Positions 3,948-58,150 of a DNA stretch of 64,000 nucleotides are shown piece by piece. The DNA comes from Candidatus Nitrosocosmicus oleophilus. GTDB lineage: Archaea; Thermoproteota; Nitrososphaeria; Nitrososphaerales; Nitrososphaeraceae. Every line of letters starts with the position of its first letter. Positions within the stretch are counted from its first letter, which is position 1. The notes under the pieces are model-generated. The model searched no databases. It was not told where the DNA came from and saw only the letters and a program-made list of their open reading frames with translations. The DNA is taken from NCBI RefSeq assembly GCF_000802205.1, contig NZ_CP012850.1:1364001-1428000 (forward strand), written 5' to 3'. The translations under genes were made by a program, and so were the position numbers.

Positions 3948-4002
3948 GAGTCAAATTTGTTTCACATACCACCGAACCAGATACTAATGATAGTAACGAT
4001 AT
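3948..4002 (+). repeat. modular dispersed repeat R1 (A'-C)
   Basis: TCAAATTTGTTTCACATACC, the junction CACCGAAC, then module C (ACTAATGATAGTAACGATAT). There is no middle hairpin module. It lies between two minus-strand genes yet reads on the + strand like every other copy. Confidence 0.85.
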
Positions 4003-6374: not shown

Positions 6375-7100
6375 TACCTCAAATACAATTGTAGAGTTTT
6401 GTCGAGTTGATTTTCCTTGAGCGATGACTCTTATAGCCATTTCAAATTATTGACCCTGGGTAATTTAGGTGTAGGGTCACTTGATCTTTATCAGACTAAT
6501 ATTATGTATTGCTTGTACTTGAAACTATAAAAAGAAAAACAAACGATTTTGCCAATCACTCTTATACATCCGAGAACATGGCAATTTCTTGGTTAAGGAC
6601 TTGGATTTATACGAAAGTACCTAAACATTTGGTAATACAATGCGAAACGACTAATACCTTCTGCGCGTGTTACGGTTAAAATCAGTTTTATTTCATTAAT
6701 TTGAACGTGGATTAACGGTTTATAATTCTGTTGTAGGACTCACAATTTATTTTTTTATGTTCATGTTTCTAAATTAATGAAATATTCTATAAACCCATAT
6801 GGATATCCTCATGATTTCCAACGAACTAGATACCAATGTTAGCAACGATATCCTAGAACTTTTTCATCTCCGTCCACCATTCCATTTAGGGAATTTAGGA
6901 TACTAGTCGTTAGAATCCGTTCATCTCGTGGACTTAATTCTTCCATGTATTAATTTAGAAAATCATAAATTAGATAAGGCTTGCGCTAGGTTGAGTTTGA
7001 AAAATCTGAAAACTCCCACCTACGAGTATTGTCTAGGTCTATATTGGAGCATTACAAGGCTTTTTATGATTTCATTAGATCATAATTCATAGAAATTAGA
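6375..7100. other. long intergenic region carrying repeat R2
   Basis: 725 bp without a supported gene. Repeat R2 lies at 6794-6851. A weak echo of the middle module may lie at 6930-6950 (TCTCGTGGACTTAATTC). Confidence 0.4.
6794..6851 (+). repeat. modular dispersed repeat R2 (A-C)
   Basis: Starts CCCATATGGATATCCTCATG, continues GATTTCCAACGAAC and ends with module C (ACCAATGTTAGCAACGATAT). It lies between two + strand genes. Confidence 0.85.
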
Positions 7101-8910: not shown

Positions 8911-8978
8911 GGGTCAAATTTGTTTCACATACCACCGAACCTGCATAGTATACGGAACTTAATCCCACCGCAGCCATT
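8911..8978 (+). repeat. modular dispersed repeat R3 (A'-B)
   Basis: GTCAAATTTGTTTCACATAC, then CCACCGAAC, then a B-module variant (CTGCATAGTATACGGAACTTAATCCCACCG). Module C is missing or decayed after it. Confidence 0.85.
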
Positions 8979-10459: not shown

Positions 10460-10468
10460 TATTATATG

Positions 10469-11465
10469 TGCTTTGTCGCCTAACTCAACATATTTAGCTG
10501 GAATGAACAGATTGATTATTTGTGATAGACTGGCCCTCTTACAATCGCTCATTAGTTCAACGCGGTGAGATCCTCTTCTCGTATGATTTCCTTGATGGTT
10601 GGGGTTCAGAGATAGAGAATATGAATATAAACAAAAAGGGTAAACCATTTGTATTTCCAGATTCTTTCATCTTGGCCATTGGTTACATTCGCTATTTATT
10701 TCACCTACCATACAGACAAACCCAAGGTATAATTAAGGCCACAGGAAAAAGGTTACCTGCTAATCCACCAAGTTATGGTCACATCTGTAAACGAATCAAC
10801 AAGCTAAACATCGATATTAAAAGAGACAAGATGGATGACGATGATGACCTAATAATATCAATAGACAGTACAGGTATCAAGATTACTAACAGAGGTCAGT
10901 GGATGGATGAGAAATGGAATACACAAAATAGAAAAGGATATCTCAAGATCCACGTTGCTGTAGACATAAAGACCAGGAAAATCATTGCTTTGGAAGTGAC
11001 AGATGAGAAGGTACATGATGGGAAAATGCTAAAGAAACTAGTCAATCATGTTTTGGATTCGAGAGAACCAAACACTGTAAAGATAAAATCGGTACTAGCT
11101 GATGGAGCCTATGATTCAAATCCAAACTTTGTGTATCTTGAGGACAAAAAGATCAATCCAGGTATAAAGGTAAGAAGGAACTCTATTGTTTCTCCTAAAA
11201 ACAATAGGTTAAGGAACAACGAAGTAAAGTTACAAGCAAAGGATCTGTTGAAATGGAAGACAAAAAGAAAATACGGACAGAGATGGATATCTGAAACTGT
11301 GTTCTCAGCTATAAAGAGAATGTTTGGTGAATACACATCAGCAAACAGGTTTCAAAACATGGTAAAGGAGATCATGATAAAAGTATCATTGTATAACATT
11401 TTTAGAAGAATATAACATGATGATCATGATGATAACCGGAGAATAAGGAATTATGCAACAAAGCA
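10469..11465 (+). mobile_element. IS5-like insertion sequence, copy 1
   Basis: 997 bp. Imperfect terminal inverted repeats of about 18 bp start TGCTTTGT on the left and end ACAAAGCA on the right. A 9-bp target duplication TATTATATG flanks it at 10460-10468 and 11466-11474. One transposase gene fills the element. Copies 2 and 3 at 44158 and 60915 are nearly identical. TIR length, size and 8-9 bp duplications fit the ISH1-like branch of IS5. Confidence 0.92.
10522..11415 (+). CDS. IS5-like DDE transposase, copy 1
   Basis: 297 residues from a GTG start. An N-terminal helical, IS5-type DUF4096-like segment (YIRYLFHLPYRQTQG, residues 51-65) precedes a DDE catalytic core: first Asp in IISIDSTGI (about 112), second Asp in LADGAYDSN (about 194) and Glu in SETVFSAIKRMFGEY (about 265). 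The frame is full length and intact, so the element may be active. It is identical in protein sequence to copy 3 and differs from copy 2 by one residue (VKEIM versus VKGIM near residue 280). Confidence 0.92.
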   Translation: MIDWPSYNRSLVQRGEILFSYDFLDGWGSEIENMNINKKGKPFVFPDSFILAIGYIRYLFHLPYRQTQGIIKATGKRLPANPPSYGHICKRINKLNIDIKRDKMDDDDDLIISIDSTGIKITNRGQWMDEKWNTQNRKGYLKIHVAVDIKTRKIIALEVTDEKVHDGKMLKKLVNHVLDSREPNTVKIKSVLADGAYDSNPNFVYLEDKKINPGIKVRRNSIVSPKNNRLRNNEVKLQAKDLLKWKTKRKYGQRWISETVFSAIKRMFGEYTSANRFQNMVKEIMIKVSLYNIFRRI

Positions 11466-11495
11466 TATTATATGCATTAAATATTTAAAGAAACT

Positions 11496-11957: not shown

Positions 11958-12173
11958 GAGGGATGGAATTTAACCAATCTGTGACAAACCGAAACGACTA
12001 TTCTGGGTTCATGGACATTTATCCATCTAATAAATCGAAATCCCACGTCTTTCATTATCGACTCTTATCCTAACCTTGTAATATGGAATCGAACGGTTTT
12101 GGATTATGTGATAATTTTGATTAATTGGGTAATGATATTATTTCCTGCACCAGGAAACCTCTTTTTCTACACA

Positions 12174-12260
12174 GGTGGATGTCCTCATGATTTCCGCCGA
12201 ACCCTTATACCATAGGGGACTTAATCCCACCGAACCAGCTACCAATTATAGTAACGGTAT
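12174..12260 (+). repeat. modular dispersed repeat R4 (A-B-C), most complete copy
   Basis: GTGGATGTCCTCATGATTTC, junction, CCTTATACCATAGGGGACTT, AATCCCACCGAACCAG, and ACCAATTATAGTAACGGTAT. All three modules are joined by ACCGAAC/GCCGAAC. It lies between two + strand genes. Confidence 0.92.
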
Positions 12261-12377
12261 AATATATTATTGAGATAAAAAAATGATAAAAAAACTCAAT
12301 TTTTGATACATTCAGAATTTTTTTACTTCGAACTATCCTTTAAAAAATGACTTTCTATGTAATGTCCGGACAACGGC

Positions 12378-12388
12378 TTTATATATAA
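12378..12388 (+). promoter_or_regulatory. TATA box setting the CAP-protein start
   Basis: TTTATATATAA is centred about 25 bp before the ATG at 12408. Archaeal TATA boxes lie about 25 bp before the transcription start, which suggests a leaderless mRNA beginning at 12408 rather than at the first ATG (12393). Confidence 0.5.
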
Positions 12389-12392
12389 TGTC

Positions 12393-13223
12393 ATGGCAAT
12401 GGCAACTATGAATCGAATTAATATTTCATTAATATTTTTAATAATGATTTCTATGGTTTCGCCGACTTCAGCAATCATATATGCTAGTGGGTCTACTGAT
12501 AATAGCGAGGGGACATCAGATACTGGGTCTACTGATGATAACAGCGACTCATCATCAGATACTGGATCTAGCGAGGATAATAGTAACTCACCACCGACTG
12601 ACTTACTTCCCCCTAACGTCGACTCAACATCATCAGCAACGTCTACAGATGATAATGGTGATTCATCAGCAACGTCTACAGATGATAATGGTGATTCATC
12701 AGCAACGTCTACAGAGAATAATACCACTTTACCGAGTGAATCTCCTTTGGGTAACAATACTGCTAATGTGCAAGGGGAGGATTTGGTCAACATCATCCTG
12801 ACCTTGCACAACCAAGAGCGTGCTGCCGTTGGGGTTCCACCGCTTACATGGAGTGACTCACTAGCCGCCCATGCACAGCCTTGGGCCGATAAAGTATATG
12901 AGACAAGTGATTCGTCCCATTCGAGTGGGGTTGCTGACTTTGGTAATTATGGTGAGAACATGGCATGGGGAGGAGGTCCGTCATTTGCAACTCCAACCTG
13001 GTTAGCTCAGACGTGGGCTAACGAAAAGAGTAATTATGTACCGGGTACTCCCGCGTCCGATAGCACTGGTCATTACACCCAGATGGTTGACAAGCAATCA
13101 ACCGAGGTTGGTTGCGGGTTTACCAGTGGACCCGCTGGTCAATATGCTGAATATGGTGGAACGAATGTATTGGTTTGTCAATACACTCCTCCTGGTAACT
13201 GGAATAACCAACCACCATATTAG
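12393..13223 (+). CDS. secreted CAP-domain (SCP/PR-1) protein with Asp/Ser/Thr repeat linker
   Basis: 276 residues. The likely true start is the third Met (12408, MNRINISLIFL), which sits 25 bp after a TATA box and opens the signal peptide. Residues 35-125 are a low-complexity Asp/Ser/Thr linker including 33-bp DNA repeats. Residues 130-270 are a CAP domain: LHNQERAAVGVPPLTWSD, HSSG, GENMAWG, GHYTQMV and VCQYTPPGNW, with the His/Glu/His/Glu cavity residues present. CAP proteins are secreted and act in adhesion, lipid binding or proteolysis; the role here is unknown. The linker suggests a surface-exposed, possibly glycosylated stalk. It is the only gene between repeats R4 and R5. Confidence 0.88.
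   Translation: MAMATMNRINISLIFLIMISMVSPTSAIIYASGSTDNSEGTSDTGSTDDNSDSSSDTGSSEDNSNSPPTDLLPPNVDSTSSATSTDDNGDSSATSTDDNGDSSATSTENNTTLPSESPLGNNTANVQGEDLVNIILTLHNQERAAVGVPPLTWSDSLAAHAQPWADKVYETSDSSHSSGVADFGNYGENMAWGGGPSFATPTWLAQTWANEKSNYVPGTPASDSTGHYTQMVDKQSTEVGCGFTSGPAGQYAEYGGTNVLVCQYTPPGNWNNQPPY
12630..12719 (+). repeat. 33-bp tandem repeats inside the CAP gene
   Basis: Two perfect 33-bp units (12630-12662, 12663-12695) and a partial third encode SSATSTDDNGD repeats in the linker. Copy number may vary between strains. Confidence 0.85.
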
Positions 13224-13384
13224 AATGGTCTCTCCTGTAACGGTAAATATCTATCCTTCACCCTGAACCAAGGTCCCATACAGAGTTACTCTAAGCAATA
13301 TCATCAATGGTATAGAGGAAAACCCCCTACTTATTTTAGTGCCTAAATTAGTAAAGTTTGAGAATATTTAATACTACATAAGCT

Positions 13385-13470
13385 ACGTATTCGAATCATT
13401 GAACTTTTGAACCCATGTGGAATTTCAGACGATTTCCACCGAACTAGATACCAATTATAGTGATAATCTA
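13385..13470 (+). repeat. modular dispersed repeat R5 with long 5-prime extension
   Basis: An extended 5-prime part (TACGTATTCGAATCATTGAA, then CTTTTGAACCCATGTGG) is shared with R10. The core GATTTCCACCGAAC and module C (ACCAATTATAGTGATAATCT) follow. It ends on the stop codon of the minus-strand gene at 13468, between convergent genes. Confidence 0.85.
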
Positions 13471-13797
13471 TCTAATGATTATTAATGTTCCGCAGTTATT
13501 ATTTGAATCTACCGAGATACCGTCTCCACCTCCACCTCCGCCAGGCCCAAATGTATTAGGTTGATTGGGTGTTTGACTTGAGGAATTCTTTGTAATTATA
13601 CAACTACCGTCTCCACCTCCACCTCCACCTCCGCCAGCCCCAAATGTATTAGGTTGATTGGGTGTTTGACTTGAGGAAATGTTAGGTTGTCCCACAACAA
13701 AAGAATCAAACCCTATTGCTCCCAAACCTAATACTGAAGTAACAAATATCATCGTGATTGATAGTTGTTTAACCATTGAAAACGATTTAACATTCAA
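13468..13797 (-). CDS. small secreted Gly-rich repeat protein
   Basis: 109 residues with a signal peptide (about 1-36, ending VVGQ). The mature part holds two copies of SSSQTPNQPNTFG followed by runs of six to eight glycines, then a short tail with two cysteines. The DNA repeats are about 75 bp apart and could change copy number by slippage. No enzyme motif is present; it is probably a surface or matrix protein. It is the only gene between R5 and R6, and its stop codon lies inside R5. Confidence 0.6.
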   Translation of the reverse strand: MNVKSFSMVKQLSITMIFVTSVLGLGAIGFDSFVVGQPNISSSQTPNQPNTFGAGGGGGGGGDGSCIITKNSSSQTPNQPNTFGPGGGGGGDGISVDSNNNCGTLIIIR

Positions 13798-13959
13798 AGA
13801 TATAACTATTCGACGTTTAATTAAAGGAATCTTAAAATTGAAATTTCGGAATAATGGATACTCTACGGACCTTACACGTCGCCCTCCGTCTCTGTTTAGT
13901 GCAGAAACCCCCTGTTTAGATACATATTAAAATAATATTGATTATTTCTATCTCTTTTG

Positions 13960-14042
13960 ATATTCTCATGACTATCAACCGAACCATTATACCATAGGGG
14001 ACTTAATCCCACCGAACAAGATACCAATTATAGTAACGAAAT
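13960..14042 (+). repeat. modular dispersed repeat R6 (A-B-C)
   Basis: GATATTCTCATGACTATCAA, CCGAAC, ATTATACCATAGGGGACTTA, ATCCCACCGAAC and ACCAATTATAGTAACGAAAT. Its last 13 bp are also the first bases of the 775-bp duplication. It lies between divergent genes. Confidence 0.9.
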
Positions 14043-14804
14043 AAGTTATAATCAAGTAAATTTGTGTACTAAATTCATGTTTTTGAAAAGGAAACAAGCG
14101 GGTTTGTGTCCAGTTGCTATGGATATTTGTCATCATTTCTTTGACTGCAATAAATAATAGTCATGGCAGGACATAATGGAGATAAAGACCATTTCCAAGG
14201 AGATTAACAAATTATGATTTCTTTTATTAATGATTATTCTCATTTCAAACGCCAAAAAGATACCCAATACTAAGAAAAACAATCCTTTTGAGCTCACTTT
14301 GAGCTCATTATGAGAGTATAAGATAATAACATACTTTTACTCTCTTTATCTAGTAATGAAAATACTTCCGCATGTTATGAGAAATATTAATGAATTTAAC
14401 ATACCCGCTGGAAATTCCCATGGCTATGAAATATTGTATTTTGGTGTAAATCTCATACTTATGTTTAAGTATAGGCTTTCTTTTGACATAAAAGTACAGA
14501 ATTCAGCTAAGGAAATAGAAATTCTAATCCTTGGCAGAAATGATATTCCAGCATGGAAAGAAAATAAGGATAATTCTGAAATTAAACCATATTATAACAA
14601 GAATGGTCTGAAAATTAATGATGTATTTAAACCTACTATAAGCGATGCATATGCATTTGTAATAAATAATCGAAAGTCTTCCATTAGTCATGAAGTAAAA
14701 ACTGTTGAGGTTATTTTGACTCATAATTGGAAGCAGGAGGTCAAGGAGTCTCAATTGAAAGAACATATCAAAACACAAGGCTAGGATTTTTTGGATAAAC
14801 AATT
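14030..14804 (+). repeat. 775-bp duplicated unit, copy 1
   Basis: Matches 36679-37453 with no difference seen by eye. The left edge lies inside module C of R6 (ATAGTAACGAAATAAG); the right edge is just after the ORF (GGATAAACAATT). No inverted repeats at the ends and no transposase. It carries one 142-codon gene and its upstream region. A diverged relic of its left 80 bp lies at 60410-60490. Confidence 0.92.
14356..14784 (+). CDS. hypothetical protein, duplicated (copy 1)
   Basis: 142 residues, family not recognised. It is rich in Ile, Lys and Asn and appears soluble with mixed alpha/beta character: NSHGYEILYFGVNLILM could be a hydrophobic strand or short helix, and SDAYAFVINNRKS and VEVILTHNWKQE look like strands of a compact domain. 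No catalytic motif. An identical copy sits at 37005-37433 inside an identical 775-bp block, so duplication was recent or the copies are homogenised. A preceding direct repeat (GAGCTCACTTTGAGCTCATT, about 14290) may be an operator. It is the only gene between R6 and R7. Confidence 0.6.
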   Translation: MKILPHVMRNINEFNIPAGNSHGYEILYFGVNLILMFKYRLSFDIKVQNSAKEIEILILGRNDIPAWKENKDNSEIKPYYNKNGLKINDVFKPTISDAYAFVINNRKSSISHEVKTVEVILTHNWKQEVKESQLKEHIKTQG

Positions 14805-14835
14805 ACTAGGATTTATGAAATCCATAATCCTACTG

Positions 14836-14925
14836 GTATGGAAATTTCATACTTGTCCCACCGAACCCCTATACCATATGGGGCTTAATCCCACGGAATC
14901 AAATACATATGTTTAGTAACGAAGT
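14836..14925 (+). repeat. modular dispersed repeat R7 (A''-B-C)
   Basis: GTATGGAAATTTCATACTTG, then TCCCACCGAACCCCTATACC, ATATGGGGCTTAATCCCACG and a diverged C (GTTTAGTAACGAAG). The 5-prime module here is the GAAATTTC type. Confidence 0.88.
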
Positions 14926-15015
14926 TTAATACGGTTAGAGATAAAGTAATTCTAAACTGTCGATATAATTAGAATGGTATAAAAAAATTTTGACCAAAAA
15001 AAAGACTAATTATTA

Positions 15016-15279
15016 TTACTTACAGCTGCCCTTGGCCCACCCGACTTTATATCCACTGGCATATTCTCCACTTCCTGGACTGTATTTCTTGCAATGGTCG
15101 TGGTCATACCAGCCATCCTTGCACCCCTGGTTCCATGACCCCGAATCGGTGCGGTCTTCACACCAATGTGAAGCTGCGTTAACAGATTGAGTTGTTAAAA
15201 GAGATGGTAACAATGCCATTGAGACGAATGCCAGTACAACAGTCAATAATCCTATTTTATTGTTCAATTCAAATTTCAT
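15016..15279 (-). CDS. small secreted Cys-containing protein
   Basis: 87 residues. A signal peptide spans about residues 8-36 (ending SVNAAS). The mature peptide has four cysteines and aromatic/Gly repeats: WCEDRTDSGSWNQGCKDGWYD, then YASGYKVGWAKGSCK. The W..G..DG..D...Y..GY..GW pattern recurs in short exported proteins of ammonia-oxidising archaea with no known role. Disulfide-stabilised extracellular location is inferred. It lies alone between R7 and R8. Confidence 0.65.
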   Translation of the reverse strand: MKFELNNKIGLLTVVLAFVSMALLPSLLTTQSVNAASHWCEDRTDSGSWNQGCKDGWYDHDHCKKYSPGSGEYASGYKVGWAKGSCK

Positions 15280-15727
15280 TAAATAAAGTAATATAAAAGT
15301 ATTTTAATGAAAATAAATGCTTAGAAATCCAATCGAGAACATGATTATTAGTATTCTCTATTTGATAAAGACTTTTAACTAATCCTTCCAAGCTATTGTC
15401 AATTGATGTATGTAAAATTATGAAAACTCTAGCAAAAATTGAAGGATTTCATTCATTATTGAATTATATTCCTCCGGTACTAAACCATTGAAGATCTCAT
15501 TTTAACATTATGAGGTATCAAAATACAAATGATGTCTCTAAAGCAAGTAATTATTAAATTCTGATAGGTTTGCAGATTCATGTGGATATCCTCATGATAT
15601 TAACCAACCAAAAAGACATAATTTTATTGTTGTTTAGATTCTAATCTTAAAAATCAACGTCCACTAGTTCATTGTGAATATTTCATCTTTACTGAATAGA
15701 CCAATAGTAGTATTTTACTGCGTTACC
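15280..15727. other. intergenic region with partial repeat R8
   Basis: 448 bp holding only the fragment R8. No coding signal. Confidence 0.4.
15577..15610 (+). repeat. modular dispersed repeat R8 (A fragment)
   Basis: TCATGTGGATATCCTCATGA then TATTAACCAACC. Only the 5-prime module is present. Confidence 0.7.
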
Positions 15728-17437
15728 CTACTCTACTTTTACTTCACCAACCATTGAAGGGTGATAAATGCAATAGTACTGGTATTCACCGGAATCATCA
15801 AATTTAAAGCTGAAATATTGGTTGGGTATTATTGCACCTGAATCAAAGACTTCTCCTGCATCCTTGTCATTATCTTGTCCTGAGGTTACTGTATGGGATA
15901 TAGTATCGCCGTTATACCATGTAATTGTTTGACCTTTTTCTATTGAAATAGGATTAGGAGAGTAGGAACTATCACCATTTATTCCTACTATGACTGCCGG
16001 AACAGAATTGTCATTCTGAGGATTGATTTGATCATTATTATACAACAGTTCCTGTTGATTTTGATCATTAGTTGTGGTATTTACATTAGGGGTGTTGCCA
16101 CTGGTTGTTATATTACCAGAAGAAGGCAAGATTCTAAATAGAGAACCAGTATAACTTAAAACATACAGGTATCCATCTGGACCTGTTTGTAGGTCTGTTA
16201 TACCGCCAAAACCTTGACCAAATACTATGGGTTGATTTTCTTTGGGGTCGTTAACTTCTCTATCTGCAAGTGGTCCTGTATTTTCTGCATATCCATTATC
16301 AAAGGATAGGTCATTTCGTGCTTCATTAAGAACAAATCGATACAAAAGACCATTATTTATGTCGCCTACAAACATGTTATTCTGATATCCTGTTCCTAAC
16401 TTACTGGAATTCAAGAATTCCAATGCTGTAACGCCTATTGGTGTAACCCAAGAGAATTTTGGCTCAGAATATGATCCTTTCCCAAAATATACCAAGTCAT
16501 CAGGTGTTGCTCCAGTAACCATAAAATCATTCTTTGAAAATCCTTGAATCAATGACCAACCGCTATTAAAGCCGGGATAGACTAAATTGATTTCATCGCC
16601 CGCCGTCGGACCATTCTCAGTATCCCATAGATTACTGGTCACGGGATCAAAGTCCATACCAAAACTGTTGCGAATACCCATTGCATAGTACAAATTAAGA
16701 GGGGATTCATCGCCAAATATGACATCGCCCTTTACGATATCGCCATCCTGAGTAACTCTGAGTACACCGCCAAGTCCATTTGGCTCTGGACCATCTTCAA
16801 TATTCTGTGCTTGGGTCCTATGTCCTCCCACTTCTCCTACTATGTAGTAGACGTTATTATCCGGACCAATTCGGATTTTGCCTCCATTGTGCTCTCCTCT
16901 ACCATTATCTGGAATTGCAGTAAGATCTAGTAGCAGAGTAGGATTTTCCAGTTGCCCGTCAACGTATTCATAACGATATAATCTATTACCTGATGGGTCA
17001 ACATTGTCTTCAAAATCGCTACCATCTGCATCGTTGCCTGATTCAGTATAAGATAGGAAAACATAGATTTTTCCATCTGGTTGTTTTGCTAAAGCAATAC
17101 CTAGTAAACCTCTTTCTATGTCAGTAGCCACAGATACATCAATTGCTGGAGTATCCTGTATCTGACCATCTATAACATGCATTACCTTCCCGGTTTCTTT
17201 TTCAGTGACCAGAATATCGTTAGGTCCTAAAAATGCCATACTCGTAGGCTTTTCTAATCCGTCGGTTACTTTTTCCACCTTGAGCACTTTATCTTTTACA
17301 GTGGGTCCATTGGGCGCTACAGGAGCTTTAGCATATGCTCCATAGGATAAATTAATCGTAGAATAATTTGAATAAAATAATAAAAATATGCAAAGAGCAG
17401 ATAAAATAAGGGGCAGATTAGTTGGTTTCTCCATCAA
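15728..17437 (-). CDS. PQQ-dependent sugar dehydrogenase fused to a cupredoxin domain
   Basis: 569 residues. After a signal peptide (about 1-34), residues 50-440 form a glucose/sorbosone dehydrogenase six-bladed propeller: VTDGLEKPTSMAF, ERGLLGIAL, GEHNGGKIRIGPDNNVYY and GITDLQTGPDGYLYVLSY are family blocks around the PQQ/Ca site. An Asn/Thr-rich linker (about 445-485) leads to a C-terminal type-1 copper domain with SHTVTSG (His) and YYCIYHPSMVGEV (Cys, His, Met). The fusion would let electrons from extracellular aldose oxidation pass straight to copper. PQQ synthesis genes are not in the window. A small membrane protein gene lies about 35 bp upstream on the same strand and may be cotranscribed. 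Confidence 0.88.
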   Translation of the reverse strand: MMEKPTNLPLILSALCIFLLFYSNYSTINLSYGAYAKAPVAPNGPTVKDKVLKVEKVTDGLEKPTSMAFLGPNDILVTEKETGKVMHVIDGQIQDTPAIDVSVATDIERGLLGIALAKQPDGKIYVFLSYTESGNDADGSDFEDNVDPSGNRLYRYEYVDGQLENPTLLLDLTAIPDNGRGEHNGGKIRIGPDNNVYYIVGEVGGHRTQAQNIEDGPEPNGLGGVLRVTQDGDIVKGDVIFGDESPLNLYYAMGIRNSFGMDFDPVTSNLWDTENGPTAGDEINLVYPGFNSGWSLIQGFSKNDFMVTGATPDDLVYFGKGSYSEPKFSWVTPIGVTALEFLNSSKLGTGYQNNMFVGDINNGLLYRFVLNEARNDLSFDNGYAENTGPLADREVNDPKENQPIVFGQGFGGITDLQTGPDGYLYVLSYTGSLFRILPSSGNITTSGNTPNVNTTTNDQNQQELLYNNDQINPQNDNSVPAVIVGINGDSSYSPNPISIEKGQTITWYNGDTISHTVTSGQDNDKDAGEVFDSGAIIPNQYFSFKFDDSGEYQYYCIYHPSMVGEVKVE

Positions 17438-17471
17438 TTACCGATTAACCACCCTTTTTTATTTAATCTAT

Positions 17472-17918
17472 CTATGCTCGTAGTGTGTGTATTGACTTTT
17501 GAATCTTGTACAATCCAGCAAAGGACAATGCAATAGCCACACTTTGCAGAATTTTTGAAATCACGTCTAGTTTTCCAACATAGAGTTCTACACCTACAAT
17601 TGGCACACCCACTGTTCTTGAAGCGGCATACGTTATTATCAAAGCAACTGAAACAACTATAGCTGCTATGTATGGCGATTTTTTCATAAACCTTGTTTTT
17701 ATCAACCATAAAACAAGACCCAAATAGATTAAACCTGAAGTAATGAATAGCGTAATTTCAACCTGCTTTTCAGTAGTTTCATCATGGATACCAAAGTTTA
17801 GTAATTCCACCCAATCGGTATACTCACCATATGCAACAAGAAAATAAACTATTCCTGTGGCTACAAGAATGCCACATAAAGCATAAACTATCAATAAATT
17901 TCTATTCATTTTTATCAC
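17472..17918 (-). CDS. four-helix membrane protein
   Basis: 148 residues with four transmembrane helices at about 8-28, 50-72, 80-102 and 118-138, and few charged residues between them. Family not recognised; topology resembles small DoxX-like or quinone-oxidase accessory proteins but no signature motif supports that. It sits immediately upstream of the PQQ dehydrogenase and downstream of the small exported protein on the same strand, so the three may form one unit; a role in passing electrons into the membrane is speculation. Confidence 0.65.
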   Translation of the reverse strand: MIKMNRNLLIVYALCGILVATGIVYFLVAYGEYTDWVELLNFGIHDETTEKQVEITLFITSGLIYLGLVLWLIKTRFMKKSPYIAAIVVSVALIITYAASRTVGVPIVGVELYVGKLDVISKILQSVAIALSFAGLYKIQKSIHTLRA

Positions 17919-17955
17919 AAATTATTTTTTGCTAGTACCAAACAAAAAAATAAGA

Positions 17956-18330
17956 TTAGGCTAAACCTTTCTTTGCTTCTTCAGCATGAGTTAACGCTCC
18001 GTTTGTATCATTATCTTTTAAGGCTTTTAGTGAAGCCTCGATGTGTTTTTCTGCACCGCTTACATTTGGTTTGTCCTCTAAACCTGATTCAGCTTGCAAC
18101 AATGATTTCTTTGCGCCCTCATTGTCACCACTCTTTATCATTAAGATACCAGAATCAATCAATTTTATTAGTCCGCTATTTGGACCACCAGAGGTACTTG
18201 TTTGATTTGTAGCATTTGTTGTGTTGGTTTGTCCATAAGATATAACGCTATTTGAAATTAAAAGCAGCGGTACAATGGCCAGAATTGAAAATAAGGCAAC
18301 CCTCCTATAGTTTTGTAATATGTTAGTCAT
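17956..18330 (-). CDS. small exported helical protein (SmbP-like pattern)
   Basis: 124 residues with a signal peptide (about 10-34, ending SYGQ). Residues 50-124 are two to three amphipathic helices with repeated Ala/Glu/His/Lys spacing: SGVEDK-like turns followed by AEKHIEASLKALKDND and ALTHAEEAKKGLA. This resembles the repeat helices of the small metal-binding protein SmbP of ammonia-oxidising bacteria, but with only two histidines metal binding is doubtful. First gene of a minus-strand run with the membrane protein and PQQ dehydrogenase. Confidence 0.6.
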   Translation of the reverse strand: MTNILQNYRRVALFSILAIVPLLLISNSVISYGQTNTTNATNQTSTSGGPNSGLIKLIDSGILMIKSGDNEGAKKSLLQAESGLEDKPNVSGAEKHIEASLKALKDNDTNGALTHAEEAKKGLA

Positions 18331-18401
18331 TTAGGGACATCTATTATTTTAGGAATAATAAACTACTTATCATTCCCAGTGATTGAGAATGGTCAAGAAG
18401 G

Positions 18402-18707
18402 TTAATTATAAGCCGAATTTGGATCTTCATAGTATTTAAACCCCTGCCATAATTGAACTATTTTATAGTGATTTTCTTTATTCATAACCTTGCAAATAAT
18501 TTTATTATTCTTATACGTCATTTGAATTTCATCGATCGAAAAAGTAAAAAATGATTCATCCGTTTCAGGTTTTGTGAACTTTTTTTGGTTTTTTATTATG
18601 TTAAACTGTTCTAACTTGTTTACCTTTCTACATGTTAGAGATAAGGGTAGACCTAGTTTGGATGCAATACGTTGAGTACTGTATTCTTTTCCATCAAGCA
18701 GTTTCAA
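18402..18707 (-). CDS. winged-helix DNA-binding regulator
   Basis: 101 residues from a TTG start. A compact HTH is clear: KEYSTQRIASKLGLPLSLTCRKVNKLEQFNII, with the recognition helix at about 23-33 and wing after 40. The same frame stays open upstream and reads SPEDVLSILTYKSSLTILKL, which looks like the real first helix but has no ATG, GTG or TTG. So either the start codon is lost or the native N-terminus is joined by a small indel. It lies just downstream of a small membrane protein on the same strand, a common archaeal HTH/membrane-protein pairing, likely to regulate that pair or a nearby gene. Confidence 0.65.
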   Translation of the reverse strand: MKLLDGKEYSTQRIASKLGLPLSLTCRKVNKLEQFNIIKNQKKFTKPETDESFFTFSIDEIQMTYKNNKIICKVMNKENHYKIVQLWQGFKYYEDPNSAYN

Positions 18708-18780
18708 AATGGTAAGACTGGATTTATATGTTAAAATGGATAAAACGTCTTCTGGAGATAGTGATGCAGTTTGCGAACAT

Positions 18781-19038
18781 TCAACTCTTCAACACGGCTA
18801 TTATTACCAATACAAAACCACATATTTCTGCTATTTCTTCAACCATATCTTTGATTTTTTCATCTGACAAACCCAATGAGTCGCCAATTATTGTGTCACC
18901 TATTGTTATCAAGGTAAAACCAACTGCGAGAAATATCATCGGAACATATCTACTTCTTTTATAGGCTCGAATAGCAAAATAGACTAGTACGAGCCCTAAT
19001 ACTATGTGAATCAGTACTATCAGATTCAATACTTCCAT
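18781..19038 (-). CDS. three-helix membrane protein (DUF7521-like)
   Basis: 85 residues: helix 1 at 4-24, helix 2 at 32-52 and helix 3 at 68-84, with YFAIRAYKRSRYVPMIFLAVGFTLITIGD between the first two. This helix-Arg/Lys-turn-helix pattern is typical of the archaeal DUF7521 group, which is usually beside a winged-helix gene, as here. Function unknown; membrane partner of the regulator is an inference from pairing. Confidence 0.65.
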   Translation of the reverse strand: MEVLNLIVLIHIVLGLVLVYFAIRAYKRSRYVPMIFLAVGFTLITIGDTIIGDSLGLSDEKIKDMVEEIAEICGFVLVIIAVLKS

Positions 19039-19603
19039 GACTTTACTGTTAGATGGAAAATATGATTATGATTTAAATGTTATACTAAATAATGAACGCA
19101 GTTTTTCTATGTAGGAATATTAAAAATTATCACTGTAACTAATAGTAATGTTTAACGTGATGCTTATCGGTATCATCTCAGAATTGTATATCTCTTGATT
19201 TAGCCATCACATGTATTTCCTCTCAGATCACATCTGACTTCTGTCTAATTATTTGTTACTCCTTAAACCTTATAATCAGGCCAGTAAGGAAACCAGTTAA
19301 CATCTTTTGCATCCAGACAAGCGGTTATACTTATCTGGATTTAAGCCTCAAAGCCTAAATGATGAAAATATTTATCATATCATTAGTCTTACGGATTTGC
19401 AAAATAAGCTCCGTTTACCTCTATACTTCTAAAATTGATCACGACCTTTTTATGTTGATGCTGTTTTTTTTAGTAAAATGATTTCGTTAATGCTTTGTCC
19501 AGCCCTCTTAATAATATATTATATATCTGTCTACAGTTCTCATTGACCGAGAATAGTCAAACCTTTTATCTAGTATCAATCAATTGAAATTATTGTTAGT
19601 ACT
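19039..19603. other. divergent promoter region
   Basis: 565 bp between divergent genes. AT-rich with no coding signal and no repeat copy. It should hold promoters for both directions. Confidence 0.4.
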
Positions 19604-20422
19604 GTGAAGAAATCAAATCTTAATCTATTTTATTTGCTAGGTGGAACGATGGGATTATTGTTCCTTCTGTCGTCATTTACAAACAATATATCAGCTCAGC
19701 AAAATTTAACAGGCAACAGTAATGGTACTCCTATTAGTTTACAGCCGGACATAAATGCTGAAAATATGTTCAATACCAAAACAATGACCATGGGTAACAA
19801 TGTAAAAACTTTAGTCATCCTCATTCCCGATGAAGGTCATCATGCTGCCGGTGAAAAAAATGAAGCTCGCTTTTTAGATCAGCATTTTATTCCAGACAAT
19901 GTGGCTATTAACACAGGAACTACTTTACTCTGGTTTAATGGTGACGTAGGTCATGATCGAACGATTGATGTCAAGGATAACAAAGGAAATTCCGTATTTA
20001 ATACGGGAAAAATTATCGATAGCCAACCTTCCCAGTCATTCACCTTTAATACTCCAGGAGAGTTCAACTATGAAGCAGAAGGTGACCCAGGTGTGACTAT
20101 GAACGGTACTATTATGGTTGGAAACATAGGATCTCCAGTCGCTCCTTCTAGTTCGGCTGCTATTACTATAAACTCAAACCTAAGCATCATTGACACTGTA
20201 GGATTACTAATGGTACCGACACAAGATATTGACAGTTATATTCAACAGATAACAGATGCTGGAATAACGGTAGATAATACATATGACTTTAAAGATTTGA
20301 GAGGAGGTCAAAAAGGCACAGGAGATACACAAACGCTTATCGTTTGGACAACTTTAAACAAAGACTTGAATGAGACACTTTCATCATTAAGTGGACTCTC
20401 GGCAAGTTTGCCTTATAGTTAG
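19604..20422 (+). CDS. exported two-domain cupredoxin-like protein
   Basis: 272 residues with a GTG start and signal peptide (about 8-33, ending NISAQQ). Residues 60-180 form a cupredoxin-like sandwich with LIPDEGHHAAGEKNEARFL, a GDVGHDRTIDV strand and a TPGEFNYEAEGDPGVTMNGTI end. His residues and a terminal Met are present but the canonical ligand Cys is missing, so any metal site is atypical. Residues 195-272 are a separate alpha/beta domain (VGLLMVPTQDIDSYIQQI). It is an intact paralogue of the frameshifted gene at 925-1816, which shows what that gene should encode. Confidence 0.75.
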   Translation: MKKSNLNLFYLLGGTMGLLFLLSSFTNNISAQQNLTGNSNGTPISLQPDINAENMFNTKTMTMGNNVKTLVILIPDEGHHAAGEKNEARFLDQHFIPDNVAINTGTTLLWFNGDVGHDRTIDVKDNKGNSVFNTGKIIDSQPSQSFTFNTPGEFNYEAEGDPGVTMNGTIMVGNIGSPVAPSSSAAITINSNLSIIDTVGLLMVPTQDIDSYIQQITDAGITVDNTYDFKDLRGGQKGTGDTQTLIVWTTLNKDLNETLSSLSGLSASLPYS

Positions 20423-20636
20423 ATTCTTATCTATTTTTATGCTCAACTTATCCCTAATCATTTACAATTAGACTCGTACTTCATCTCCGTAATTTTATGC
20501 TGAGACATACTTTCGTTAAACTTTTAATAGATATTTTCAATTCAAATTGATAGTTTCTATCTCCATGGAATATCCTAAATATCCATGCGATTAGATTTAC
20601 TTGTGAATTTTTATACAACAATTAACCTAACAAATT

Positions 20637-21058
20637 GTGAAACAAAAACTAAGGAAGGCCGTATCATTCATAATAGCACTAACCGCTCTCACCGGGGTTA
20701 CATCCTTTACCACAATTCATGTATATGCTCATGGTAGTCATTCAGAGGCTGATTCCACCTCCATTGCTGCAGTTGTAATGATGACTACTGATTCTCAGGA
20801 AATGCTGTATTCAGCCCTATGAAAACTACTATTAAACAAGGTGAAGAATTGCTAGTTTTGAATAATTTGACAGAAAAACACAAGTTTACAAATGGTAATG
20901 ATACTGTAGATTCAATGGATGGCAAGATATTTTCAGTTGACATATCTCCAGGGAGTTTTTCAGAATACTTGGCTTCAAATATTTCGCCTGGTAATTATTC
21001 ATTCTATTCCAAAAACGATCCCAATTTGAAAGGTGAATTAGTAATACTGCCTCCATAG
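20637..21058 (+). pseudogene. short exported cupredoxin-like protein split in two frames
   Basis: Frame 1 (20637-20822) supplies a signal peptide (about 8-32, ending YAHG) and a histidine-containing N-terminus ending SQEMLYSAL. Frame 2 (20819-21058) starts with the overlapping ATGA and reads MKTTIKQGEELLVLNN and then HKFTNGNDTVDSMDG. Read through with a small shift, the join becomes FSPMKTTIKQGEELLVLNN, the standard cupredoxin opening (fsP..i.v..Ge.v...N). So this is one gene broken by an indel near 20808, or less likely two translationally coupled ORFs. No ligand Cys is seen in the second part. Confidence 0.6.
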
Positions 21059-21468
21059 GCAATTTCTTATTTTTTTCTTTGTTACAATAAATTCAACACT
21101 ACAATCAATTGAATTTTATAATGCTGATAAAAGATAAATGACAGACATTTAGACTTGAGAATCTAAGGATTGATAATTTATTGAAAAGCACTTCTCTATC
21201 TGGTAAACATTAGATAAGACAATAGATTTACTTCCAATAATATGACTACCATCATTACAAACATTAATTCAAATATGAATAAAAATGTTGTAAATACTCT
21301 AGAACTATAGATCGAAAATAATCTATATTCCATATATTGACCAATGGAAAGATTATTAATTATAGTACGCATTATCAATGAGAACAATCTACATTCTATC
21401 AATAATTCATCTTCTAAAAAGGTTAAATCAAAGTAAAAATAAGAAAATTTTGAATAATTGCAAAGAAT
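21059..21468. other. intergenic region
   Basis: 410 bp of AT-rich DNA. The 68-codon minus-strand frame at 21196-21402 has no recognisable family or start signal and I do not call it. Confidence 0.35.
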
Positions 21469-23427
21469 ATGTTGGATGATTTCGTGCTAAATAAGGATAC
21501 TGTGATTTGGATTTATCACAAGGGTAGACTATCTCTATCACTTAGTAAAAGATATCCAATACCCATATTTGCAATTATCGGATTATTGTTTGGGGTAATC
21601 ACTCATTATGGATTTAATAATGCAGAATTGGGACATTTGATTTGGTTCATCGTATTGGTAATAGGAGGATTACCAATAATATTTGAAACGATAAAAGGAC
21701 TCGTGAATGGTCGTTTTGTTTCTGACATTGTTGCAACGCTTGCAATAATCACTGCCATAGTGACAAATGAAGCATTTCCTGGTGTAATTATTGTTATAAT
21801 GCAATCTGGAGGAAAGGCTTTGGAAGATTATGCCTTTAGAAAGGCAACAAACTCCCTTGACGAATTAATGGCAAGATCGCCTAAGATAGCACACAAGAAA
21901 ATCAATGATCAAAATATAGAAGACATTGATGTCGAGAATATTATAATCGGAGATCATTTAATAATACGACCTGGAGATCTTGTTCCCGTTGATGGCATTA
22001 TTATTTCAGGTAATGCAGAAATCGATGAATCTTCTATTACTGGTGAGCCCTTGTCTAAAATTAGACAAAGTGGAGAAGAAGTATTTAGTGGAACTATTAA
22101 CATAGGTAACGTCTTTGAAATAAAAGCAATACGCGTTAGCGAAGAAAGTCAATATTCAAAGATAGTAAAACTCGTAAAAAACGCACGAGAAGAGAAACCG
22201 CCCATACAAAGAATCGCAGACAAATATGCTTTATTGTTTACACCAATCACACTAGCTATGTGCGGTTTGGGGTGGATTTTAACTCAAAATCCTCAAACTA
22301 TTCTAGCAGTACTTGTAGTAGCAACTCCATGTCCTCTCATATTTGCAACACCCGTTGCCATAATAAGTGGAATAAACAAGGCGTCAAAACAAAGTATAAT
22401 AGTAAAGAGCGGTGCAGCCATTGAAAATATAGAACGGGCACAGGTAGTCGTATTTGACAAAACAGGTACTATAACGTATGGAGTTCCTATTGTAGAAGAT
22501 GTTATATTGTCCAATAACTTTGGAATAAACAATAAGGGCAAAAAGATAGGATTTACTGCAGATGATATTTTATTTAAATCTGCTTCTTTAGAACAAATGT
22601 CTTCTCATCCATCTGCACAAGCCATAACCAACGCAGGAAGGAAAAAATTCCATAATTTACCGTTACCCGTAAACTTCTGTGAAGAATCTGGTCTAGGAGT
22701 TAAAGGTTTTATTAATGGAGAACATGTGATGGTTGGATCTCCATCTTTTATTCAATCCCAATCCAATATGACTCATACGAGTAATCTTCCAAATCTGAAT
22801 GATGATCTCTTAAAAACTATTTCATATTGGCAAAACAATGGAAAGATGGTAATACTTGTAAATATCGATGGAACAAATTTGGGCTTAATAATGCTTAGTG
22901 ATAAGATCAGGGAAGGGGTTGTCACTATGATCCAAAGTTTGAAAAAATCCGGCATAAAAAAAACCATTATGCTTACTGGAGACAGCTTGATTAATGCAAA
23001 ATCCATAGCAAACCAAGTTGTTGTGGATGAATTCAAGTATGATCTACTACCAGAGGATAAAGTTAACGAAGTAAAAAAATTAAATGAAAAATATAAAAGT
23101 GTTATAATGGTGGGAGATGGAATTAATGATGCTCCTGCTTTAACAACTGCGACTGTGGGCATTGCAATGGGAGCCAAAGGTACGGCTATTTCTGCAGAAG
23201 CAGCAGATGTAGTTTTATTAGTCGACGATATAACCAGAGTATCGGATATAATACGAATTAGTAAACGGACAATACACATAGTAAAACAAAGTATTCTCGT
23301 TGGAATGGGATTAAGTTTTCTTTTAATGGTTTTTGCTAGTTTTGGATTAATTCCACCCTCAGTAGGCGCTTTGCTTCAGGAAGCATTAGATATTGGTGTA
23401 ATATTGAATGCTCTAAGAGCCAGATAA
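21469..23427 (+). CDS. P1B-type heavy-metal-transporting ATPase
   Basis: 652 residues. The ATPase core is complete: TGEP (about 191), phosphorylation motif VFDKTGT with D330, SSHPS (the P1B His-Pro), MLTGD, and GDGINDAPAL (about 550). The membrane metal motif is TPCPL (C288) where zinc and copper pumps have CPC or CPH and cobalt/iron P1B-4 pumps have SPC. There is no N-terminal metal-binding domain; helices sit at about 30-120, 260-310 and 615-650. The TPC form plus short N-terminus points to a divergent P1B pump, so the ion (Zn, Co, Fe or Mn) is uncertain. No MerR/ArsR/CopY-like regulator is adjacent. Confidence 0.92.
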   Translation: MLDDFVLNKDTVIWIYHKGRLSLSLSKRYPIPIFAIIGLLFGVITHYGFNNAELGHLIWFIVLVIGGLPIIFETIKGLVNGRFVSDIVATLAIITAIVTNEAFPGVIIVIMQSGGKALEDYAFRKATNSLDELMARSPKIAHKKINDQNIEDIDVENIIIGDHLIIRPGDLVPVDGIIISGNAEIDESSITGEPLSKIRQSGEEVFSGTINIGNVFEIKAIRVSEESQYSKIVKLVKNAREEKPPIQRIADKYALLFTPITLAMCGLGWILTQNPQTILAVLVVATPCPLIFATPVAIISGINKASKQSIIVKSGAAIENIERAQVVVFDKTGTITYGVPIVEDVILSNNFGINNKGKKIGFTADDILFKSASLEQMSSHPSAQAITNAGRKKFHNLPLPVNFCEESGLGVKGFINGEHVMVGSPSFIQSQSNMTHTSNLPNLNDDLLKTISYWQNNGKMVILVNIDGTNLGLIMLSDKIREGVVTMIQSLKKSGIKKTIMLTGDSLINAKSIANQVVVDEFKYDLLPEDKVNEVKKLNEKYKSVIMVGDGINDAPALTTATVGIAMGAKGTAISAEAADVVLLVDDITRVSDIIRISKRTIHIVKQSILVGMGLSFLLMVFASFGLIPPSVGALLQEALDIGVILNALRAR

Positions 23428-23998
23428 CATGTCAAATATATCGCTATGATTGCTTATTATAGGTCAAGTTTGTAATTAAATTTCTTTGCTAAATTATGCT
23501 TATAATTTGAATCATCACTTTCATTTGTTGTAAAGATATTCTTATATTATAATTTCTGATAAACAGAAAAAGTGAGTCAAAAAGGAGTAAAGCCTGATAG
23601 AAAGAACAATGTATTACATGAAGGACAAGACAGAATTCTAAGATGATTATATTTTCTGCAGACTAGAAAATTGTAACCTATGGCATGTATGGGATAGGTT
23701 GAATCTATTCACTGAATACCACACCTAGAAGTTAGGAACAGATAGTTGAACATAGCAATAAACTTATTATTGTTCTCTACTTCTGTAATTGCATTAATGC
23801 TCTGTGTAGATTTTGAATATAAATTAGATTCTTTGGTGTGTTTGCTGAAAAGAAAAAGATTTGCTAAAACAAAGAAAATCTATTTGATCTGGATAATACA
23901 ATTAAGCAGTCAGAGTAAGTAAATAGAAGTTCAATTCTAATTTGAGTCCAATTGGCTCAATTATTCATATTTATTTAACCTGTGAATAGGATATATAT
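23428..23998. other. intergenic region, nothing recognised
   Basis: 571 bp, AT-rich, no coding remnant or repeat copy found. The TATA-like GGATATATATATG abuts the next start. Confidence 0.4.
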
Positions 23999-24433
23999 AT
24001 GAAAGTGAAAAATCTATTATTATCGATCATTTTAGCCACGTTTATCGCAGGATTTAGTCTATTTGAATCCTCAAACACTAATGCGCAAAATAACACTACA
24101 GCATTGCCATTGTCAAATTCCACCTCAAATTCAAATAGTGAGGAAAAATCATACATCTTGATTTTTGAACAACGAAATATAGGAAACATTGACAACTCTA
24201 CAAAAATTGTGTCATCAATTGTAGGCCATAATATTGTAAAGATAGCAGAAGAATTTGTTGAAGAGATCAGCTTAGCCCCGTCTCAGCAATTAGAACAACA
24301 GGTAGAAGAAATAATCTACAATGGTACAAATGGTTTACCATGTAATACGTCGTTGACAACTCAAGAAGGTGAAAGTGTTTCTGTTGAGTGTATTTCATCT
24401 GAAAATGTTGTTATATGGTATATTCATTTATAA
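23999..24433 (+). CDS. small exported protein, unknown
   Basis: 144 residues: a signal peptide (about 5-31, ending TNAQ), a Ser/Asn/Thr-rich spacer (33-52), then a folded part with SYILIFEQRNIGN (strand), helices around EEFVEEISLAPSQQLEQQVEEI, and two cysteines (CNTS, VECIS) likely to form a disulfide. Family not recognised. It stands alone before repeat R9. Confidence 0.6.
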   Translation: MKVKNLLLSIILATFIAGFSLFESSNTNAQNNTTALPLSNSTSNSNSEEKSYILIFEQRNIGNIDNSTKIVSSIVGHNIVKIAEEFVEEISLAPSQQLEQQVEEIIYNGTNGLPCNTSLTTQEGESVSVECISSENVVIWYIHL

Positions 24434-24576
24434 CTATAATTGAGCTGTTGATAGGAATATTTTGACAACTGTTCAATTATTAAAATTCAAAATTATTTTT
24501 TTATAAAATCAAATCAAATCCTAATTTCAAAGCGATTACACCCCAATTAAAAATCAAACATTTTGGTTGAAAAAAC

Positions 24577-24665
24577 TGATAAAATTTGTTTCACATCTCA
24601 CCGAACCCTTATACCATACGGGACTTAATCCCACCGCACCGGCTACTAATTATAGTAACGATATA
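24577..24665 (+). repeat. modular dispersed repeat R9 (A'-B-C)
   Basis: AAAATTTGTTTCACATCTCA, CCGAACCCTTATACCATACG, GGACTTAATCCCACCGCACC and ACTAATTATAGTAACGATAT. One of the most complete copies. It is followed by about 60 bp also found after R20. Confidence 0.92.
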
Positions 24666-25058: not shown

Positions 25059-25145
25059 TACGTATTCTAATCATTGAACTTTTGAACCCATGTGAATATC
25101 CTCATGATTTCCACCAAAGCCGATACCTATTGTAGTAACGATATT
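25059..25145 (+). repeat. modular dispersed repeat R10 with long 5-prime extension
   Basis: TACGTATTCTAATCATTGAA, CTTTTGAACCCATGTG, AATATCCTCATGATTTCCAC and a C module (ACCTATTGTAGTAACGATAT). It shares its 5-prime extension with R5 and forms the left edge of the phasin-like block. Confidence 0.88.
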
Positions 25146-25307
25146 GATATATAAAAATTATAACAATTGAGTAATATAATTGAAAAAGAGATGGCTTGTC
25201 ATGGATTAGATATAAATCTTAGTCATGTTTCAGAATTTTTTAATCATTTCACCAATTGTGGTCATGTTTTGTCAATTTTAGGCATTAAAAACCGTTTAAT
25301 ACCAGTG

Positions 25308-25316
25308 TTTATATAG
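25308..25316 (+). promoter_or_regulatory. TATA box of phasin-like gene 1
   Basis: TTTATATAG is centred 25 bp before the ATG at 25337, implying a leaderless transcript. The element and flanks (AAAAACC upstream) are conserved at 58122-58130. Confidence 0.65.
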
Positions 25317-25336
25317 TATGGTACCTAATAGATAGT

Positions 25337-25927
25337 ATGTCAAAGAAAACAGAAACCAACCAAAATTATTCAAATAATAACAATGATTTCCAAGAATCCG
25401 TTAACCAATCATTTGATGAAACTAAAGACAATATCAAAAAATCAATAGACGAATCAAGAAAACAGATTCCAAGAATTAATGACAGTGTAAATAGTTATCA
25501 AGAGCAATCACTACAAACTGCAAAAGAGATTTCAGAACAATATCTTGATTCTCAAAAAGAAGTTGTCAATTCACTCCAATCAGCATGGAGGCCATATAAT
25601 GAGATATACACCGGATTAGTCACCAACTATTATTCTCCTAATGCAGCAGTTAATGCATATACAAGATTTGTCAGTAACGTTGCAGACAACACCGTATCAG
25701 CCATCAGACTTTCAAACAACGTTATTTTCTCAACCCTTGATGCATGGAAACCATTACTACAACAAGCAAAGGACGTTTCAAGACACATATCAAACACAGG
25801 AGTAAACACAGCAAGAGTATTTGAACAAAATTCAAGACAATTTGCAGCAGAAGTTCAAGATGTAGCAGCAGCCAGTTCAAACGTAAACACATCTACCAAC
25901 ACTACCACAAAGTCCACAACTCATTAA
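25337..25927 (+). CDS. phasin-like amphipathic helical protein 1
   Basis: 196 residues, almost entirely helical, without cysteine or a signal peptide. The N-terminal 60 residues are polar with heptad spacing (FDETKDNIKKSIDESRKQIP). The centre has QSAWRPYNEIYTGLVTNYYSP and ARVFEQNSRQFAAEVQDVAAAS, and the end is a Ser/Thr/Asn tail. This is the look of phasins, which coat polyhydroxyalkanoate granules; ammonia-oxidising Nitrososphaera carry PHA synthase genes, but none is in the window. It is about 88 percent identical to the protein at 58151-58741. The gene, promoter and terminator lie in a block bounded by repeats R10 and R11. Confidence 0.65.
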   Translation: MSKKTETNQNYSNNNNDFQESVNQSFDETKDNIKKSIDESRKQIPRINDSVNSYQEQSLQTAKEISEQYLDSQKEVVNSLQSAWRPYNEIYTGLVTNYYSPNAAVNAYTRFVSNVADNTVSAIRLSNNVIFSTLDAWKPLLQQAKDVSRHISNTGVNTARVFEQNSRQFAAEVQDVAAASSNVNTSTNTTTKSTTH

Positions 25928-25938
25928 CAGCGAAATAA

Positions 25939-25980
25939 GAAAAACCAAAGACTAGAAAAAATTTAACTCATTGGTTTTTC
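25939..25980 (+). terminator. hairpin after phasin-like gene 1
   Basis: GAAAAACCAA (25939-25948) pairs perfectly with TTGGTTTTTC (25971-25980), followed by CTTTTA. It is conserved after the second copy (58753-58794) despite sequence drift in the loop, which supports function. Confidence 0.65.
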
Positions 25981-26110
25981 CTTTTAGAGCTAAATAAACT
26001 CAAAATTTTTAAATTAATCAATACTAAAATTAAATTCAGTTTTCTGACCTTTGTCTTTTTTATCCATGTAAGAAATTTATCTAAAAAAACAAACCCATTT
26101 TCAAAAGGTA

Positions 26111-26169
26111 ACTCATGAGGATATCCTCATGATTTCCAGCGAACCAGCTACATATATAGTAACAATACG
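26111..26169 (+). repeat. modular dispersed repeat R11 (A-C)
   Basis: CTCATGAGGATATCCTCATG, a 16-bp perfect palindrome (ATGAGGATATCCTCAT), then ATTTCCAGCGAACCAGC and ACATATATAGTAACAATA. It is the right edge of the phasin-like block. Confidence 0.88.
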
Positions 26170-26178
26170 TTAAGCCCG

Positions 26179-36678: not shown

Positions 36679-36692
36679 ATAGTAACGAAATA
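36653..36692 (+). repeat. modular dispersed repeat R13 (C only)
   Basis: AACTACCAAATTCGCTACTA then ATTGATAGTAACGAAAT. Its 3-prime half is shared with the 775-bp duplicated unit. Confidence 0.75.
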
Positions 36693-58130: not shown

Positions 58131-58150
58131 TATGGTACCTAATAGATAGT

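Follow-up and report, generated by a model that had tools for sequence, protein, structure and literature searches.

A 3′ end of tRNA-Lys(CTT) recurs in the genome of Candidatus Nitrosocosmicus oleophilus as the seam of a one-directional array of gene cassettes. The array was very probably built up as small cassettes, most of them without an integrase, integrated site-specifically one after another at this tRNA gene, which would give an integron-like effect without an integron. The window, i.e. the whole 64,000-nucleotide stretch that was analyzed, comprises positions 1364001–1428000 of the single-contig 3.43-Mb genome; 404 kb around the array and selected stretches were used as sequence, and the rest of the genome was covered by pattern searches. 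Ten exact copies of the core CCACCGAAC were found in the window, all on the plus strand (shuffle mean 0.10, shuffle maximum 2). The tRNA-Lys(CTT) gene is located at genome positions 1344188–1344277, 20 kb to the left of the window; its 3′ end reads ...GTGGGTCCGAATCCCACCGAACCCG and is directly followed by a C module. The first genomic copy of the seam is the 3′ end of this gene, which identifies CCACCGAAC(CC) as the T-stem and acceptor 3′ strand of tRNA-Lys(CTT). The first-pass annotation, which had described mosaic repeats joined at a common seam, missed this origin because the tRNA gene lies outside the window.

The feature had also been confined to 12174–24665, which proved too narrow. In this genome (G000), 31 sites were detected over approximately 161 kb downstream from tRNA-Lys, to genome position ~1505700. 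Genome-wide pattern searches placed nearly all copies of the A1, A2, B and C modules on the plus strand between 1.344 and 1.506 Mb, and only a few isolated minus-strand module copies outside the array. Core quality worsened with distance from the tRNA in this genome only (rho 0.44, p 0.025); the arrays of relatives showed no consistent trend. The sites and cassettes detected in the window, given in window coordinates, are as follows.

3969–3977, plus strand: site, A2-core (CCACCGAAC)-C
6818–6826, plus strand: site, A1-core (CCAACGAAC)-C
8932–8940, plus strand: site, A2-core-D; decayed second core 33 bp further
12172–12260, plus strand: composite, A1-core (12194)-B-core (12227)-C, cores 33 bp apart
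12236–13435, plus strand: cassette between two cores, one gene for a secreted CAP-domain protein (12393–13223, plus strand)
13405–13466, plus strand: site, A1b-core (13436)-C
13445–13975, plus strand: cassette between two cores, one gene for a small secreted Gly-rich protein (13468–13797, minus strand)
13950–14042, plus strand: composite, degenerate arm-core (13976)-B-core (14009)-C
14018–14857, plus strand: cassette between two cores, gene at 14356–14784 (plus strand)
14835–14935, plus strand: composite, A3-core (14858)-B-degenerate core CCACGGAAT-degenerate C
15579–15602, plus strand: decayed A1 arm, core lost
24579–24664, plus strand: composite, A2-core (24598)-B-core (24631, CCACCGCAC)-C
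25089–25144, plus strand: site, A1-degenerate core CCACCAAAG (25111)-C, left end of cassette X copy 1
25120–26135, plus strand: cassette X copy 1, gene at 25337–25927
26114–26170, plus strand: site, A1 (perfect palindrome CATGAGGATATCCTCATG)-core-C, right end of cassette X copy 1
38575–38630, plus strand: site, A1-core (CTACCGAAC, 38597)-C
39819–39875, plus strand: site, B-core (39842)-C
46083–46091, plus strand: site, A4 (AGATCT palindrome)-degenerate core CAATCGAAC-D-like arm
48507–48560, plus strand: site, A2-degenerate core-C
56646–56654, plus strand: site, A4-core-D-like arm
57925–57933, plus strand: site, A3-core-C, left end of cassette X copy 2
57934–58948, plus strand: cassette X copy 2, gene at 58151–58741
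58949–58957, plus strand: site, A1-core-C, right end of cassette X copy 2
63440–63448, plus strand: site, A3-core (TCACCGAAC)-untyped arm; the array runs on beyond the window

Other observations were made in and around the array. An IS5-like element (DDE transposase) is present in the window at 10462–11481, 44150–45163 and 60898–61926 and recurs outside it; the near-identical copies number at least seven over 400 kb, and one of them has the opposite orientation. Minus-strand homologues of cassettes near 1.55 Mb, at which no core was detectable, may stem from an inversion between IS copies of opposite orientation. Approximately 0.48 Mb from the array, at genome positions 1835123–1836949, a detached cassette (A1-core-C ... 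A2-core) is located on the minus strand and carries a gene for a GEEST-repeat secreted protein that is also present at genome position 1358954. A naive gene call at genome positions 1357238–1357651 gave an Arg/Gly/Ala-rich product, at odds with the 33% GC genome, and this stretch is perhaps foreign or spurious.

The left modules are best read as the downstream ends, and the right modules as the upstream ends, of adjacent cassettes joined at a tRNA-derived att core. As the first-pass annotation had stated, A-B-C composites are joined at the seam (12194/12227, 13976/14009 and 24598/24631, with A3-B at 14858), and simpler joins exist as well (A2-C at 3969, A1b-C at 13436, A1-C at 25111, B-C at 39842 and A3-C at 57925). 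Its statement that unrelated left modules end at the same seam was borne out, with more than the three kinds then recognized (GGATATCC, AATTTC, CAAATTTG, GAAATTTC, AGATCT and others). When the sites of about 20 genomic pieces were tallied, most pairings of left with right arm types occurred: A1 with C (13), B (5), D (2) and E (1); A2 with C (7), B (6), D (2) and D′ (3); B with C (11), E (2) and F (1); and the tRNA with D′ (4), E (2), F (2) and C (1). The ends of aligned homologous blocks were positioned no more than 15 nt from a core in 31 of 160 cases (null mean 3.1, maximum 9 in 1000 trials), a count that includes related, not fully independent block pairs, and both ends were at cores in 3 of 80 homologous array blocks (null 0.04). 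The remaining 129 block ends were away from detected cores, presumably as a result of decay. The clustering of breakpoints and the wide mixing of arms agree with the proposal that the seam is a crossover point, and in this larger sample deletion-only variation from one ancestor was not what appeared. The mosaic joins are real; the “repeats”, taken earlier for exchanged elements or parts of one repeat, are better read as junctions between adjacent cassettes.

Module B stands apart. The paired cores of the three A-B-C composites enclose B and are exactly 33 bp apart, as are pairs in G005, G007 and G010. The right half of B (GGGACTTAATCCCACCGAACC) corresponds to the end of the tRNA-Lys T-arm at 18 of 21 positions, and B was never observed directly after a tRNA in the sample of about 20 pieces. 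The landing site is possibly carried along in this form, as a built-in copy. The serial-integration model leaves the exact 33-bp doublets unaccounted for.

This tRNA end is shared by relatives within 'Ca. Nitrosocosmicus', including G003 ('Ca. Nitrosocosmicus' sp. SS), and by other Nitrososphaeraceae. Stretches of four genomes from the same genus (G003, G005, G007 and G010) each have a tRNA-Lys(CTT) gene with co-oriented sites extending downstream; beyond the genus, sites were found in G018 and G024, and probably also in G015 and G021. Both strands of eight Nitrososphaeraceae arrays were searched, and 91 of 91 sites were downstream of tRNA-Lys on the same strand, with none upstream or on the opposite strand. 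Synteny upstream of tRNA-Lys was kept among the relatives and ended at the tRNA 3′ end.

Less-filled forms of the junctions are present in relatives. The D′ arm (CGCATAGTATACGGGTCTATATAC...) abuts the tRNA core in four genomes (G003, G007, G010 and G013), and is found as A2-core-D′ behind inserts in two: here D′ follows A2 at genome position 1346967, separated from the tRNA by two inserted segments, and the corresponding A2-core-D′ junction of G005 is at 2096612, behind inserted DNA. Unoccupied and occupied forms of one site, the comparison applied to integrated mobile elements (iMGE), were in this way both observed. To the right of the core, G005 matched the four genomes at 79–94% over 217 bp, and to the left the sequences were non-homologous. 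Likewise, the F arm occurs as tRNA-core-F in G001 and as A3-core-F in G010, and the E arm is found at a tRNA and also after A1 or B. These junctions follow the pattern expected if tRNA-core-X turns into tRNA-core-C...A-core-X. A nearly empty unit was observed in Nitrososphaeraceae bin_OS2.4, where the tRNA-Lys core is followed by about 20 nt, an A3-like arm and a second core.

On this basis, we infer that small circular DNAs whose attP reads [left arm A]-core-[right arm C, D or E] would recombine with the tRNA end, the putative att core being CCACCGAAC(CC). Each event would yield tRNA-core-C...genes...A-core-(old neighbour), so that repetition would stack co-oriented junctions where the arms of different cassettes meet. 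A helper element at the same tRNA, intact in some relatives, would supply a tyrosine integrase, most likely in trans, because most cassettes consist of one or two cargo genes without an integrase. A search of IMG/VR with two exact patterns found no free circle or element with the arm-core.

A tyrosine-integrase gene starts just after tRNA-core-D′ in G007 (454 aa) and G003 (448 aa), and integrases of one of two families directly follow the tRNA at 9 of 34 tRNA-Lys loci in named records. The catalytic R, (Y)xxR, W and Y residues are conserved in the G007/G003 protein, which would be the maker of the junctions. Alone, this protein scored under the Pfam cut-off (PF00589, E 0.0015); it is identified as a tyrosine integrase because homologues (E about 1e-50) pass that cut-off. 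A PDB sequence search with a mixed-family profile gave XerA (E 2e-5), and the structure model was poor (pLDDT 49.5). The best NCBIfam match of the integrases was XerA_Arch, at 22–37 bits against a cut-off of 220, and none of the NCBIfam integron-integrase models scored above its cut-off. The copy in G010 is truncated. What is left in this genome is D′ plus ATGCCAGTAAAATTAGAAACCACACT, the first codons of the gene, and the D′-integrase remnant is located downstream of inserted cassettes both here and in G005. The sole PF00589 gene of this genome sits in a separate tRNA-Ser element; with only an integrase stub at the array, the array looks like a stranded relic. The tRNA-Ser(GCT) element itself (genome positions 2445084–2466331) is ordinary, with its own integrase and an att copy, CCCACTCCCCGCG, 21 kb downstream; at this tRNA-Ser we found one ordinary att pair approximately 21 kb apart and no second array.

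The first-pass annotation had favored exchange at a short sequence “rather than whole-element copying”. That part does not hold, because whole cassettes recur from seam to seam. Cassette X is a one-gene unit of approximately 1.05 kb with two copies in the window and two full or nearly full copies in G010. The window copies (25120–26135 and 57934–58948) are homologous from seam to seam with each other and with the G010 cassette; the left neighbours of the four copies are A1, A3, A4 and A1, and the sequence to the right of the seam is homologous. The median gap between sites was 1.2–2.3 kb in the densest arrays. The segments mostly hold one or two genes in either orientation, most without an integrase, and the cargo varies by species. 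Pfam searches identified a CAP-domain secreted protein, cupredoxin-like proteins, methyltransferases and a P-type ATPase; by our own reading, the cargo also appears to include carbonic anhydrase-like, universal stress and sugar dehydrogenase-like genes.

Cassette X bears on a different explanation, in which full-size integrative elements (plasmids or proviruses with their own integrase) inserted serially at tRNA-Lys and were then deleted to remnants, the cassettes being leftovers. Relatives have at least two integrase families at this tRNA, several right arms (D′, F) precede integrase genes, the 21-kb integrase element at tRNA-Ser is of the ordinary kind in the same genome, and tandem integration at one site has been described for archaea (PMC6563490, PMC8371274). 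However, the same one-gene unit recurs from seam to seam in two species with differing neighbours, and the gaps between sites are short. Independent deletions should not yield the same small unit repeatedly, and we therefore consider this explanation unlikely, although it deserves to be taken seriously.

Not all movement of array genes involved the seam. The most recent duplication in the window (14022–14804 versus 36670–37453, 99.7%) covers the bulk of the cassette at 14018–14857, and its copy at 36670–37453 breaks within the C arm and before the next core. Other processes thus move array genes too. This duplication and the loss of the integrase in this genome would suit a reading in which the array is shuffled without a dedicated enzyme, through homologous recombination between the tRNA-end repeats. 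Against it, 9–13 bp make a short core for such recombination, insertions favor the tRNA end, where relatives have their integrase genes exactly, and the origin of the first repeats would be left unaccounted for. As the main explanation of the array, it seems improbable to us.

In 62 divergent left arms (tRNA and B left out), self-complementarity peaked at 0.53, centred exactly 13.0 nt upstream of the core. Most of the remaining centres gave approximately 0.27, and 300 shuffles reached no more than 0.35. The paired positions include several Watson-Crick types, and the arm sequences differ. The tRNA side is without a 13-nt palindrome, its T-arm hairpin being centred about 4.5 nt from the core; the palindrome therefore marks cassette ends and not the landing site. 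Right arms gave only a marginal constant-distance palindrome (0.35 versus a null maximum of 0.34), no signal comparable to that of the left arms. The left-arm palindrome may be a dimer site or a hairpin, both of which fit the sequence. We put forward, tentatively, the possibility of a cassette-capture platform of ammonia-oxidizing archaea that evolved independently as an integron analogue, in which tRNA-Lys would be a permanent landing site, a tyrosine integrase would move one-gene integrase-less cassettes in trans, and a palindrome of freely variable sequence (hairpin or dimer site) at a fixed 13 nt would identify the cassette end.

The likeness to integrons (PMC9668308) extends to co-oriented sites, small cassettes of mostly one or two genes, growth by insertion beside an anchored site, and palindromic sites that are fixed in position and variable in sequence; moreover, integrons are known from archaeal MAGs (PMC9668308). 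A true integron, in which folded single-stranded attC sites would be the substrate of an IntI-type integrase, is nevertheless highly improbable here. The anchor is a tRNA gene instead of attI, and the core is the tRNA end; judged from the site sequences, ACCGAAC/GTTCGGT departs from both attC boxes, GTTRRRY and RYYYAAC. The integrases, as noted above, exceed no integron-integrase cut-off, so that neither core nor integrase is of the IntI/attC type. Moreover, the integrase of an integron is fixed at one end and new cassettes enter between the integrase and the array, whereas here it travels with an array element and was itself pushed downstream by later insertions. Still less credible is an interspersed transposable or REP/MITE-like family, or a set of regulatory or RNA elements, spreading independently of the intervening genes: the repeats are intergenic and palindromic, and a multi-copy IS5-like family is present in the window, but each side of a given repeat belongs to a different neighbour, and the single orientation of all 91 sites, their strict clustering downstream of one tRNA and the lack of any match in an Rfam search of the repeats rule this reading out.

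Under serial integration at tRNA-Lys, about 5% of this genome, and the matching stretches in relatives, can be read as a stack of separately acquired cassettes. The model points to a route by which soil ammonia oxidizers gain secreted proteins, cupredoxins, carbonic anhydrase-like proteins and stress genes. If the cassettes move in trans, the array would amount to an archaeal equivalent of the integron, with a tRNA gene as its foundation. The palindrome, with its fixed distance and free sequence, makes the question of recognition directly testable, and the integrase that is intact in G003 and lost in this genome offers a defined contrast for study.

Among known systems, the closest described analogue of the archaeal array appears to be fGI-2 of 'Ca. 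Methylopumilus', an additive flexible genomic island with recurring repeats of the tRNA-Lys(ctt) 3′ end (last 20 nt) (PMC10872708). Both are variable islands of accessory genes with tRNA-Lys 3′-end repeats, and fGI-2 likewise grows additively. 'Ca. Methylopumilus' is a bacterium, and the likeness is one of description that does not imply homology. In the part of PMC10872708 consulted, arm exchange at the repeat, palindromic arms and a comparison of filled and less-filled islands are not described for fGI-2. Thaumarchaeal iMGE, which belong to the same phylum, are tyrosine-integrase elements whose short att sites at tRNA 3′ ends recall those of the array, and are mostly single and 2.6–98 kb in size; tandem re-use of one integration site has been noted for them (PMC6563490). 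They are defined by their integrase, whereas the array consists of some 30 sites and of small cassettes mostly without one. The main text of PMC6563490 does not mention an array at tRNA-Lys, and none appears in two open-access papers on Nitrosocosmicus or Nitrososphaerales genomes, so that an earlier description elsewhere is possible. As described in PMC10872708, the tycheposons of Prochlorococcus are cargo-carrying transposons of 4–200 kb that resemble the array in combining a tyrosine recombinase with tRNA-bordered cargo islands, but differ from it in their large cargo units, the archaeal units being typically 1–3 kb and mostly without a recombinase.
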